Shown: piece after piece, positions 18,785 through 54,000 of the stretch | How positions within the stretch are numbered: the first letter of the stretch is position 1 | How the letters are laid out: each line of letters starts with the position of its first letter | Source of the DNA: Rhodocytophaga aerolata | GTDB taxonomy: Bacteria > Bacteroidota > Bacteroidia > Cytophagales > 172606-1 | Reading direction: 5' to 3' | Assembly: GCF_030503435.1 (NCBI RefSeq) | Contig: NZ_JAUKPO010000014.1 | Span: forward strand, 62,001-126,000 | DNA length: 64,000 bases | Notes under the pieces: generated by a model | The model's input: the letters and a program-made list of their open reading frames with translations, nothing else | Told to the model about the DNA's origin: nothing | The model's database searches: none | Made by a program: the position numbers and the translations under genes

Positions 18785-19717
18785 ATGAACAAAATAAAAA
18801 GCCCATTAACAGGTTCTTTGAACACAACTTTAGAACGTTATATAAATAGTAAATATATTATAGAAGGCTACAAAAAATACTTAAATATAGATGTAACAAG
18901 ATTTTTTGAAACTCAGAATAAAGTTAGTATATACAGATGTAATGATACAGGTTTTAGGTTTTATTATCCCTTTGATATTGATGGAGATCCAAACTTTTAC
19001 AAAGATTTGCAAAAGATCGATTGGTATTATAGTGACTGGCGCTGGGAAAATGAAATAGCTAACAACTTGATCAATCCAACTGATAAAGTTTTAGAGATAG
19101 GCTGCGGCAAAGGTGTATTTTTAGAAAGGCTTACCAAAAGAGGTATAGAATGTTTAGGGTTAGAACTTAATGATGATACAGTAGCAATTGGAGAATTAAA
19201 TAATATAACAATACTGAACGAAAATATAGAAGATCATGCCAATTTAAATCCTTCTACATATGATTGGATTGTTACATTTCAGGTTGTTGAGCATATAGCC
19301 TTTGTTAAATCCTTTATTGAAGCATCATTGAAAGCACTTAAACCAGGAGGAAAATTAATTATTTCAGTACCTAATAATGATGCAATTTATTTTAGTTTTC
19401 ATAAAGAAATCGAATTAGAACTTGCTTTTCAACAACGTATATTATTAATGAATATGCCACCTCACCACATGGGTTTATGGAATTCATCTTCATTAAGCAA
19501 GTTAGACTTAGTATTTAATTTAAATGTTGAGAAAATCTATAAAGAACCATTTCCTGAGCATAGAATAGATTTAGTGAGTGAAATTTTTGCGAAAAAATAT
19601 ATGGGCTTTAACAACTATTTAATTAGAAAAATATTTAAAAGTATTATCTATAGATTTAAAAAGACGGTGAATTTAGAGGGTACTACTGTACTTGCGGTGT
19701 ATTCTAAACCATTTTAA
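18785..19717 (+). CDS. Class I SAM-dependent methyltransferase
   Basis: 310 residues. The SAM-binding motif I is VLEIGCGKGVFLERL near residue 102, with acidic motif LGLELND after it; FQVVEHIAFV and LKPGGKLIISVPN correspond to motifs II/III of Methyltransf_11/23-type enzymes. The N-terminal 95 residues contain paired aromatic residues (DWYYSDWRWENEIA). It lies directly after wzt, the position where capping methyltransferases of ABC-exported O-antigens are often encoded, so a glycan methylation role is likely but inferred. From here the DNA becomes clearly more A+T-rich. Confidence 0.85.
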   Translation: MNKIKSPLTGSLNTTLERYINSKYIIEGYKKYLNIDVTRFFETQNKVSIYRCNDTGFRFYYPFDIDGDPNFYKDLQKIDWYYSDWRWENEIANNLINPTDKVLEIGCGKGVFLERLTKRGIECLGLELNDDTVAIGELNNITILNENIEDHANLNPSTYDWIVTFQVVEHIAFVKSFIEASLKALKPGGKLIISVPNNDAIYFSFHKEIELELAFQQRILLMNMPPHHMGLWNSSSLSKLDLVFNLNVEKIYKEPFPEHRIDLVSEIFAKKYMGFNNYLIRKIFKSIIYRFKKTVNLEGTTVLAVYSKPF

Positions 19718-24856: not shown

Positions 24857-25861
24857 ATGCTTTTGCTTGATAGTGAAAATATTACAAGAAATCACCCGGT
24901 AAATCTTCGGCCGGAGCATCAGAGATACTTCGAAAAAGAATACAATAAAACACTTCCTTCGGTATACCTTAAAATGCATAAGAATGTATTGCTTACTAGT
25001 GAAGGAATTATATTTAAGAACTTAACACTTATTAAAGAATCTCTCTTAATGCCTGAGCATGGAACTACTTTTAATCTAAGGTATATTATTTCAGTAGTAC
25101 TTCGTAGAAAGAAAGTGGTTTTGCAAGATGGTAATTATCTATTCGTATTCAACGTATGGTATCAAGGATATTTTCATTGGTTGACTGAGTGTTTACCTAA
25201 ATTGTATCTGATTAAGGATTTTTTGCATCAATACACGTTACTCTTGCCAGATAATATATCATCATTTCATCGATCGAGCCTAAAAGCTTTTCAATTTAAA
25301 GAGATTCTGTATTTTTCTACAAACGAATACTTAGCCATTCCTAACTTGGATATTATTACACAGCTTGCTGAAACTGGCAGTTATAATATACAGCTCATAA
25401 AACATATGCGGAGTTATTTTAATGACTACTTCTCTTTTACTGAAACTTCTATTTTAGCGGAGAAAATATATATATCACGCAGAAAAGCATCACGCAGAAA
25501 AATTATTAATGAGGAGCATGTAGAAAAGTTACTCTCAGATGCAGGTTTTTATTCAATAATAATGGAGGACTTCTCTTTTGAGGAGCAAATTGCTATAATG
25601 CGTCAATGCAAATATCTAATATCTATGCATGGTGCAGGGTTAACAAATATGTTATTTATGCCTACTAATACCTGCGTTTTAGAATTTAGACCAGAAGGAG
25701 ATGAATCTAATTTATGCTATTTTTCTTTAGCTTCTGCATTAAATATCTTCTATTTCTATCAGTTTGGCCTACCTAATAATCTTAAAAATATCCATAATGC
25801 CGATATCCTAATAGATGTACCTTTACTGCAACAGACAGTTGAGCAGATGTTAAAATATTAA
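24857..25861 (+). CDS. Glycosyltransferase family 61 (DUF563)
   Basis: 334 residues. The motif YHWLTE-like GYFHWLTECLPKLYL near residue 104, IYISRRKASRRKIINEEHV near 206 and ISMHGAGLTNMLFM near 257 are the defining features of GT61 family proteins, which in bacteria occur in capsule and O-antigen loci. No signal peptide or membrane anchor is seen. It is the only GT61 member here. Confidence 0.87.
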   Translation: MLLLDSENITRNHPVNLRPEHQRYFEKEYNKTLPSVYLKMHKNVLLTSEGIIFKNLTLIKESLLMPEHGTTFNLRYIISVVLRRKKVVLQDGNYLFVFNVWYQGYFHWLTECLPKLYLIKDFLHQYTLLLPDNISSFHRSSLKAFQFKEILYFSTNEYLAIPNLDIITQLAETGSYNIQLIKHMRSYFNDYFSFTETSILAEKIYISRRKASRRKIINEEHVEKLLSDAGFYSIIMEDFSFEEQIAIMRQCKYLISMHGAGLTNMLFMPTNTCVLEFRPEGDESNLCYFSLASALNIFYFYQFGLPNNLKNIHNADILIDVPLLQQTVEQMLKY

Positions 25862-50585: not shown

Positions 50586-50741
50586 ACCAGTTCTAGCCAA
50601 AGGTTCAATTCGTATGGCTACCGGCCAGTAGAGCTAATCCGTATAAGCCGTATCTATTCAAAAAAATCGCCTTACAGTCAGCAAGTTAAGCTCTATTTAA
50701 ATTAGACTGGTTGTATATTTTTATTTGATAAATACTTTACA

Positions 50742-50749
50742 TATTTTTG
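50742..50749 (+). promoter_or_regulatory. -7 box (TATTTTTG) for the metH transcript
   Basis: Matches TAnnTTTG, ending 11 bases before the first base of the SAM-I riboswitch P1 stem, the position expected for a promoter driving the riboswitch leader. Confidence 0.55.
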
Positions 50750-50758
50750 CCTAAATAA

Positions 50759-50938
50759 ACTTATCCAGAAAGACGGAGGGAATGGACCCCATGATGTCTT
50801 AGCAACCTTATTAGTGACGAATGATTAATGACTGTAGACTACCTTCTCATTAAAATCAATCATTAATCATTTACCAGTTTTCACTGATTTACGGTGCTGC
50901 TTTCCACTTAAGAGCCATAACTCTTAAGAAAGATAAGG
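50759..50938 (+). promoter_or_regulatory. SAM-I (S-box) riboswitch with long P3 arm
   Basis: P1 strands CTTATC (from 50760) and GATAAG (50932-50937) enclose the conserved core: ACGGAGGGA near 50772-50780, ATGATG, TAGCAACC near 50800, GGTGCTGCTTTCC near 50893, then the P4 hairpin CTTAAGAG/CTCTTAAG and AAGAAAGATAAG. All positions match the S-box aptamer except the P3 arm, which is expanded to about 85 bases with an extra TAATGA-type inverted repeat (AATGATTAATGA near 50819 and TCATTAATCATT near 50859). It precedes metH and should repress it when SAM is abundant. The expression platform is unclear. Confidence 0.92.
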
Positions 50939-50986
50939 TCGGTGCTTCACTATAACCTTCCCCTTCTGAATAAGCTGTTTAGTATA

Positions 50987-51025
50987 ATTACTGATGTATG
51001 AGTAGTCAAATACTCAGTCAGTAAT
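50987..51025 (+). other. Stem-loop in the metH leader (possible expression platform)
   Basis: ATTACTG (50987-50993) and TGAGTA (50999-51004) pair with TACTCA (51011-51016) and CAGTAAT (51019-51025). No T-run follows, so it is not a standard terminator; it could act with the riboswitch by occluding the start region. Its 3' strand is part of the AGTAATC repeats. Confidence 0.4.
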
Positions 51026-51040
51026 CAGTAATCAGTAATC
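51020..51040 (+). repeat. Three tandem AGTAATC heptamers
   Basis: AGTAATC occurs three times in tandem directly upstream of metH, followed by degenerate units (ATTTAATC, TTTCATC, TTTCATC). Similar sequence motifs also appear in the P3 insertion of the SAM riboswitch. Confidence 0.7.
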
Positions 51041-51071
51041 ATTTAATCTTTCATCTTTCATCGTTACGATA

Positions 51072-54000
51072 ATGAATATTACAGAGCTTTTAGGCAAGCG
51101 TATCCTGGTGCTCGATGGAGCCATGGGAACCATGATCCAGCGGTATAAACTCGAAGAGGCCGATTACCGGGGAGAACGCTTTAAAGATTTTCCATACGAT
51201 CTGAAGGGAAACAATGACTTGCTTTCGCTTACACAGCCGCAGATTATTAGGGAAATTCACCGCCAATACTTTGAAGCCGGAGCTGATATTGCTGAAACAA
51301 ATACATTTAGCGGCACTTCCATTGCCATGGCTGATTACCATATGGAAGATCTGGTATATGAGCTCAATTATGAGTCGGCCAGAATTGCTAAAGAAGTTGC
51401 TGAGGAGTTTACGAAAGCCAACCCAAATAAACCCCGTTTTGTAGCAGGTTCAATAGGCCCTACCAACCGGACAGCTTCTATTTCGCCAGATGTCAATAAT
51501 CCGGGGTTCCGGGCAGTTTCTTTTGACGAACTGGTGGCTGCTTATACGGAGCAAGTAAAAGGGTTGATAGATGGCGGAGCCGATTTGCTTTTGGTTGAAA
51601 CAATATTTGATACTTTAAATGCGAAAGCTGCTCTATTTGCCATAGAGCAATTTTTTGAAACAATAGGCGAGCGTATTCCGGTGATGGTGTCGGGTACCAT
51701 TACGGATGCCAGCGGACGTACACTTTCCGGGCAAACCGTAGAAGCTTTCTTATATTCTGTTTCCCATATTCCCTTACTGAGTGTAGGCTTTAACTGTGCC
51801 TTAGGAGCAGATTTGCTTCGGCCGTATGTAGAAGAACTGGCACAAAAAGCTCCGTTCTACACGTCTGCACACCCCAATGCCGGGCTGCCTAATGAGTTTG
51901 GCGAGTATGATGAAACGCCCGAACACATGGCTACCATCATTGAAGATTTTTTGCAGCATAATTTTATAAATGTCATTGGGGGTTGTTGTGGCACCACGCC
52001 AGACCATATTAAAGCTATTGCCGATGTAGCCGCCAACTATTCGCCCCGCCAGGTTCCCACCAACGATCATTTACCTAAATTCAGTGGTCTAGAGCCACTT
52101 AAAATATTCCCTGGAGCTAATTTTGTCAATATAGGCGAACGCACCAACGTAACCGGTTCCAAAGCTTTTGCCCGGTTAATTAAAGCTGGCAATTTTGAAG
52201 AAGCTTTATCAGTAGCCCGCAACCAGGTTGAAGGTGGTGCCCAGGTAATTGATGTGAATATGGATGAAGGCATGCTTGATTCAGAAGCTGCTATGGTTAC
52301 TTTTCTCAACCTGATTGCTTCTGAACCAGATATTGCCAAGTTGCCCATTATGATTGATTCCTCTAAATGGTCAGTGATAGAGGCAGGATTGAAATGTGTG
52401 CAAGGCAAGGCCATCGTCAACTCTATTTCCTTAAAAGAAGGAGAAGAGAAGTTTAAAGAATATGCTACCAAAGTAAAACGGTATGGAGCCGCGGCAGTAA
52501 TTATGGCCTTTGATGAACAAGGTCAGGCAGATTCCTACGAACGACGGATTGAAATATGTGAACGTGCTTATAACATTCTTACCAAAGAACTCAACTTCCC
52601 GCCCGAAGATATCATTTTTGATCCCAATATATTAACTGTAGCTACTGGTATTGAAGAACACAACAACTATGCAGTAGACTTCATAAAAGCTACGGAGTGG
52701 ATTAAGAAAAATTTGCCATATGCCAAAGTAAGCGGGGGTGTCAGCAATATATCCTTTAGTTTCCGTGGGAATGATGTAGTCCGGGAAGCTATGCACTCAG
52801 CTTTTCTGTACAGGGCGATCAAAGCCGGTATGGATATGGGTATTGTCAATGCCGGAATGATTGCCGTATATGAAGATATTCCCAAAGATTTGCTGGAGCT
52901 GGTAGAGGATGTTTTATGGAACCGCCGTCCGGATGCGACAGAACGGCTTGTGTCTTTTGCTGAAAATATTAAATCTAAGGGTAAAGAGCAGGTAAAAGAC
53001 GAAAGCTGGCGCCAAGGAAGCGTACAGGATCGCTTAACCCACTCCCTGGTAAAAGGAGTAGTAGATTACATTGATCAGGACATAGAAGAAGCCCGTCAGC
53101 AATACGAAAAACCCCTACAGGTTATTGAAGGTCCATTAATGGATGGAATGAACGTTGTAGGCGATTTGTTTGGCGAAGGGAAAATGTTTTTGCCCCAGGT
53201 AGTAAAAAGTGCCAGGGTAATGAAAAAAGCGGTGGCTTACCTATTGCCGTTTATTGAAGCAGAAAAAGTCAGACATGCGGCTGCAAATCCTAACGAAAAG
53301 GCAGATGGCCGGGGAGATACAGCAGGTAAAATATTAATGGCTACCGTTAAAGGCGATGTGCATGATATTGGTAAAAACATTGTAGGCGTAGTACTCGGGT
53401 GCAATAACTATGAAGTAATTGATTTGGGCGTAATGGTTCCTGCTGAAAAAATTCTGCAGGCGGCCAGAGAGCATAAAGTAGATATAATTGGCCTGAGCGG
53501 ACTAATTACCCCTTCTTTAGATGAAATGGTGCACGTAGCCAAAGAAATGGAGCGGCAAGGGTTTAAAATCCCTTTACTTATTGGCGGGGCTACTACTTCC
53601 CGTATCCATACGGCTGTAAAAATTGCACCTAACTATTCCGGAGCCGTCGTGCATGTACTGGATGCCAGCCGAAGCGTACCGGTAGCTGGTAAACTGGCCA
53701 ACATGAAAACCATGGATGAATTCGCAGTAGAGATTAAGGCAGAATATGAGAAACTTCGTACGGACCATGCCTCCCGGCAAAAGGATAAGAATTATGTTTC
53801 CATAGAAAAAGCCCGTGAGAATAAGACTAAAATAGACTGGGAAACTACGACGGTTACAAAACCTTCATTTTTAGGAAATAAATATTTCCATGACTACGAC
53901 CTGGCCGAAATAGCTAAGTACATAGACTGGACTCCATTCTTCCAGACCTGGCAGTTGCAAGGCAAGTATCCAAAGATATTCGATAATCCGACGGTAGGTG

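Follow-up and report, generated by a model that had tools for sequence, protein, structure and literature searches.

In the parts of the literature drawn on here, nonconserved stem-loop insertions have been described for many riboswitches (PMC2258182). Among short repeats, TAACTGA heptamers are known from Beggiatoaceae, Cyanobacteria, and some Bacteroidetes (PMC4679880), heptamers have been reported to be over-represented in bacteria and to form inverted pairs in Xanthomonas (PMC4692102), and heptamer-derived satellites have also been mentioned (PMC6749651). A limited literature search yielded no work tying heptamer repeats to riboswitch arms. The locus presented here lies in a window of 64,000 nucleotides (the whole stretch of DNA that was analysed) from Rhodocytophaga aerolata. 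It carries a SAM-I riboswitch before metH, the P3 of which was probably lengthened by a heptamer-armed hairpin of a family that is also dispersed elsewhere in this genome.

Using cmscan, the aptamer was matched to RF00162 above the cut-off over the whole model (E 1.2e-11, model positions 1-108; Table 1). It is located 5' of metH, the ATG of which lies 132 bases past the aptamer end, and a metF-type gene follows. The SAM-I riboswitch that the first-pass annotation had placed upstream of metH was thus recovered, with a TIGR02082 gene downstream. The statement that all conserved aptamer positions are present stood for the match as such, which is full length, but not for the outermost P1 pair and some P3 pairs, which are flagged as non-standard. 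In the predicted fold of the 182-base aptamer, P1 to P4 are all formed, the long P3 included (-45.8 kcal/mol; z -3.57; 1 of 200 shuffles equally good), and the P3 pairs are kept in an unconstrained fold, both of which agree with the earlier view that the aptamer is still foldable. The only other SAM-I match in this 9.07-Mb genome is of normal length (107 nt). The nearest named MetH proteins, compared over the first 209 residues, include those of Sandaracinomonas (77%), Arsenicibacter (76%), Dyadobacter (74%), and Spirosoma (71-75%), which points to Bacteroidota and probably to Cytophagales.

Table 1 Features of the metH leader and the genes downstream (positions in the window)
Feature	Position	Strand	Basis
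TATTTTTG, fit to TAnnTTTG (presumed Bacteroidota promoter box), begins 18 bases 5' of P1 CTTATC	50742..50749	+	Promoter box consensus
SAM-I riboswitch aptamer with expanded P3	50758..50939	+	RF00162, 60.9 bits (gathering cut-off 44.4)
P3 5' arm, three heptamers TTAGTGA/CGAATGA/TTAATGA	50811..50831	+	Inverted repeat, period 7
P3 3' arm, four heptamers TCATTAA/TCATTTA/CCAGTTT/TCACTGA	50860..50887	+	Inverted repeat
CCTTCCCCTTCT, possible partner of GGAGGG (50775-50780) without SAM	50956..50967	+	Unconstrained fold
Small inverted pair ATTACTGAT / ATCAGTAAT, P3-like polarity	50987..51032	+	Inverted-repeat search; forms in predicted folds
TCAGTAA x3.4 array	51018..51041	+	TRF; 0 mismatches to TCANTNN class
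TTTCATC x3.0 array, ends 9 bases 5' of metH ATG	51042..51062	+	TRF
metH, cobalamin-dependent methionine synthase, 1270 aa	51072..54884	+	TIGR02082, 1809.1 bits (cut-off 1010.85)
metF-type methylenetetrahydrofolate reductase, 319 aa	54942..55901	+	TIGR00676, 304.8 bits (cut-off 293.7)

A sequence fitting TAnnTTTG, which we take to be the promoter box of Bacteroidota, starts 13-18 bases upstream of P1 in 11 of the 13 metH-type leaders compared, which places the probable start of transcripts just 5' of P1. A sigma-70 promoter in the leader was considered and rejected (two promoter-like sites, 1.8 expected). As the leader is without a terminator-like site (none within 50586-51120), control at the level of translation would be more likely than control by termination.

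The P3 tip comprises 73 bases, compared to five in the RF00162 model. It contains the inverted pair noticed at first sight of the sequence (50820-50834 / 50857-50871), the arms of which are 93% complementary and 22 nt apart, and the only two exact matches of AATGATTAATGA in the window are the two P3 arms. Period 7 is present in the insert (best lag-7 agreement against dinucleotide shuffles, p 0.004) and in each of its halves against the same kind of shuffles (5' half p 0.007, 3' half p 0.0024). On the minus strand, the 5' arm corresponds to three TCANTAA units with two mismatches; on the other side of the hairpin, 50860-50885 fits the TCANTNN class pattern at one mismatch. The spacer between aptamer and ATG holds CCTTCCCC and, within the TCAGTAA array, the three AGTAATC heptamers reported earlier (51020-51040). 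AGTAATC as a single 7-mer shows no enrichment across the window (14 occurrences against 9.7 expected); its tandem order, not its count, is the unusual feature. The leader's period 7 was reached by 0 of 5000 shuffles, and a period-7 scan of the window returned one array, that of the metH leader; TRF gave two more period-7 rows, of merely 2.1 copies each (18949-18963 and 25611-25625). Among the five leaders tested, period 7 is present in the genome under study (G000), G002, and G023 and absent in G001 and G109.

The exact TCAGTAA triple was rejected as the signature of a family, since it has one match in the whole genome even when three mismatches are allowed; the family emerges only with a degenerate unit. 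With the class pattern TCANTNNTCANTNNTCANTNNTCANT (3.7 units of TCANTNN, at most one mismatch, overlapping registers counted), 95 matches were obtained in G000 against 7 for the reversed pattern, while none occurred in third-order Markov sequence (3.85 Mb) for which the non-coding DNA of G000 had served as training set. Heptamers of the class are thus found elsewhere in the genome, as the first-pass proposal of a repeat family implied. The 95 include both the metH leader and the 3' arm of P3; because the pattern was written after the result for TCANTAA, these two matches are not independent of it, whereas the genome-wide excess is. Three TCANTAA units with at most two mismatches gave 24 matches versus 17 for the reversed pattern and none in the Markov sequence. 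The reversed control is impure in that a genuine (TAATGAC)n array at C147:247047 fits it. This array supplies 5 of 7 control matches in the search for the exact TCAGTAA triple, 5 of 17 in that for TCANTAA, and 5 of 5 in a further search; the remaining control matches are unexplained. Forty places in G000, chosen for spread and not at random among the TCANTNN matches listed, were examined. Thirty-six of them do not fall in a predicted ORF, and at 12 of the 40 both strands carry arrays when two mismatches are allowed. The both-strand places start with the AATGA arm, which is the polarity of P3; one (L370) alternates. A strict scan of 464 kb of G000 for non-coding period-7 arrays returned three, the metH leader among them; of nine other periods scanned in the same way, two gave one array each. 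Sequence comparison thus supports placing P3 and the array of the leader in a single degenerate class of heptamers dispersed in G000.

SAM-I matches were found in 47 of 59 relatives and in 356 of 391 genomes of the order. A regular expression for SAM-I caught 8 of the 80 named metH loci, and cmscan was used instead; above its cut-off, 41 of the 80 loci have a SAM-I aptamer, which exceeds 131 nt in five of the 41. Pattern searches for a long P3 arm had hits in 8 of 391 genomes (including G032, the P3 of which is normal) and in 2 of 390, and in 4 of 200 genomes of the family of G109. A class-wide pattern for an expanded P3 found none in 376 genomes, a weak result since its ending, GGTGCYA, misfits the GGTGCTG of this very window. 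The long P3 inserts were reduced to 15 distinct ones by excluding G005 and G127 (printed matches equal to those of G003 and G047), G776 (same insert as L076), G032 (the match runs to a later GGTGC), and the shorter P3 loops of other loci; L151 joined the set after the first check. Period 7 was significant (p <= 0.025) in six of them (G000, G001, G002, G004, G023, and G109), and nine other periods were significant in 5 of 135 tests on the same inserts. As period 7 was not significant in the other nine (G003, G047, G791, G256, L076, L127, L130, L142, and L151), heptamers are not the sole source of a long P3. Between G000 and G001, 8 of 8 outer P3 pairs are kept, with one double change, and between G002 and G004 two double changes occur among 12 P3 pairs, one pair being non-standard in one genome. 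The P3 insertion was thus not found to be conserved by sequence: close relatives keep the pairing with the sequence changed.

On a MetH tree of 88 rows, in which G004 is absent, no fewer than two changes are required for the heptamer label, and its clustering is not beyond that of shuffles, 44 of 500 being as low. The neighbours of G109 in the tree, Spirosoma and Larkinella, have normal aptamers. TCANTNN and reversed matches number 45 and 8 in G001, 68 and 32 in G002, 95 and 8 in G023, and 1 and 1 in G003. G109 has 81 against 318 reversed, for which its richness in other heptamers may account. Strict non-coding arrays, including those of the metH locus itself in G000, G002, and G109, number three in G000, three in G001, seven in G002, 27 in G109, none in G003, and one in G034. 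Strict heptamer-armed hairpins were found in G109 (14) and G002 (two, one being its metH P3) and not in G000 (464 kb), G001 (400 kb), G003, or G034. A relative with a long, heptamer-free P3 has almost no heptamers genome-wide. Over six genomes, the association of heptamer load with a heptamer-containing P3 is suggestive.

Several observations were made alongside. In 400 kb of G109 (C1:1500001-1900000; L189-L208), 27 non-coding period-7 and 13 period-8 arrays occur, many of them forming near-perfect hairpins, the tips of which are GC-rich in some cases (for example, GGCTCCGC/GCGGAGCC). At L037, L041 (G003, G005), and L039 (G004), metH-type SAM-I aptamers precede ORFs that do not begin like metH. 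In 7 of the 80 named loci (L091, L092, L097, L098, L108, L123, and L133), the region of the metH leader has an antisense match to Flavo-1 RNA (RF01705), about 75-285 bases 5' of metH on the minus strand, with SAM-I also upstream in five of the seven; it is possibly another repeat-like guest of this leader. Cobalamin riboswitches were considered as further hosts. Twenty matches were found in ten genomes, and no clear heptamers were seen by eye in the five that were inspected. The longest of the 20, a 268-nt riboswitch (L237, G004 C36:21486-21753), has an extra AAATAAATGCTT...AAGCATTTATTT hairpin, likewise without clear heptamers by eye.

In solved aptamers the SAM pocket forms near the base of P1 and P3, and SAM-I switches normally turn the gene OFF when SAM is plentiful. 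In the mechanism proposed here, the P3 arm would have been lengthened by a hairpin the arms of which are heptamers, these being of a degenerate family of the form (AATGANN)n - loop - (NNTCATT)n that is dispersed through non-coding sequence in G000 and some relatives. A paired insertion would be tolerated because the P3 tip is remote from the pocket. The array 5' of the metH ATG would be a second copy of P3's heptamer class, and the riboswitch would control metH, and probably metF also, with the response to SAM and its OFF direction taken from the SAM-I family.

Folding predictions for five leaders gave identical P3 pairs whether or not the aptamer was enforced (23/23, 19/19, 40/40, 43/43, and 33/33), and P3 is therefore most likely passive, an arm that is tolerated. 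GGAGGG, the P2 strand, has a pairing partner 3' of the aptamer in all five unconstrained folds; in G000 the partner is 50962-50967, and in G109 it lies within metH. These folds are 4.1-6.7 kcal/mol better than the enforced ones, a difference the sign of which is forced by the method. Shuffled downstream sequence reached the gap in 22, 14, 23, 93, and 26 of 100 cases (G000, G001, G002, G023, and G109, respectively). Since shuffled sequence often reaches it, and often pairs GGAGGG as well, the folds point only weakly to a switching partner of GGAGGG, and the one given in Table 1 is a guess.

Growth in place would account for the locus in another way: polymerase slippage in a long AT-rich P3 and in the spacer, with selection for pairing matching the arms, and no movement. 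This fits equally well as movement of a repeat, and we regard it as a serious possibility, at somewhat less than even chances. Slippage has been proposed as the cause of the over-representation of heptamers in bacteria (in the part of PMC4692102 drawn on here), the heptamer units differ between genomes, and in a sister genome P3 is already expanded and shows period 7 (p 0.016), but no array precedes metH. Slippage alone, however, gives no inverted pairs, and 12 of the 40 places examined are both-stranded with one polarity. The spacer 5' of metH in the sister genome is unlike that of G000 rather than empty. The first-pass suggestion that a repeat family invaded the leader is supported as far as P3 and leader share one dispersed degenerate class, while the movement itself is a conjecture, no empty site (a locus lacking the repeat) having been found. 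That P3 is an ordinary variable insertion, owing its heptamer look to chance in AT-rich inverted sequence, is very unlikely. Stem-loop insertions of a variable kind are common in riboswitches (PMC2258182, in part), most of the long inserts are without period 7, and the p value of the G000 insert, taken alone, is moderate. Yet period 7 recurs in 6 of 15 inserts, compared to the few significant tests at other periods, and the P3 3' arm is a member of the genome-wide class, by which the chance reading is already disfavoured.

The heptamers could also be recognised as binding sites by the ribosome or by an RNA-binding protein. Copies before start codons would then act in translation, with P3 carrying extra ones. 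Of 53 arrays in the 40 places, 21 are followed in the TCATT direction, within 42 nt, by the ATG of an ORF that is 240 nt or longer (18 of the 21 within 14 nt), versus 1 of 53 in the opposite direction; the background is 35 of 741 non-coding points, and the metH array conforms to this orientation. TAACTGA repeats are placed alike, and S1, Csp, and Csr proteins have been proposed to bind them (PMC4679880, in part). There may be a plain reason for the orientation, however: in the AATGA orientation most units would contain an ATG, and avoidance of false starts yields the same bias. The units are also degenerate, the heptamers in P3 are paired, and the array before metH is absent in the sister genome, all of which leaves the binding-site explanation unlikely. 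On contig C180 of G000, a TCATTNN array lies just 5' of the ATG of each of three neighbouring genes, the products of which begin with MLKNY/MFKNY (L376, L377, L313-L315); these arrays may have been copied along with their genes. A wider idea, likewise unlikely, is that a heptamer hairpin family spreading in some Cytophagales-type genomes puts TCATTNN arrays directly 5' of start codons, supplies expansion arms to structured RNAs, and at metH entered both the aptamer and the leader beside the ribosome start site. If so, a single factor that binds the repeat could adjust SAM sensing jointly with translation.

The reading preferred here, lengthening of P3 by a heptamer-armed hairpin of a dispersed family, would show a conserved RNA aptamer absorbing repeats at a permissive arm. 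It names a testable source for riboswitch insertions, for which the part of PMC2258182 drawn on here names none, and repeat family and insertion are present in one genome, with relatives that have them and relatives that do not. The orientation of TCATTNN before start codons raises a genome-wide question on Bacteroidota leaders. Compared with the SAM-I riboswitches of RF00162 (PMC2258182, in part), the locus is alike in having a full aptamer 5' of metH with an insertion that spares the core, and differs in that the insertion has heptamer arms with matches to a family that recurs throughout the genome that carries it. Long stem-loop insertions are thus known, and a dispersed heptamer family as their source, which a limited literature search did not turn up, may be new. 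With the TAACTGA repeats (PMC4679880, in part) it shares direct repeats of seven bases that are mostly intergenic and often directly 5' of start codons in one orientation. The unit is another one: TCANTNN for the class and TCAGTAA at metH, the complement of which, TTACTGA, is one base off, so the array is not a TAACTGA repeat. Inverted pairs are common here and, in the part of PMC4679880 concerned, nearly absent among TAACTGA repeats; the word riboswitch does not occur in that paper. The GGGAATC heptamers of Xanthomonas form dispersed intergenic arrays with many convergent inverted pairs, as do those described here, but their unit is G-rich and has been studied as quadruplexes, with no mention of riboswitches in the part of PMC4692102 drawn on.
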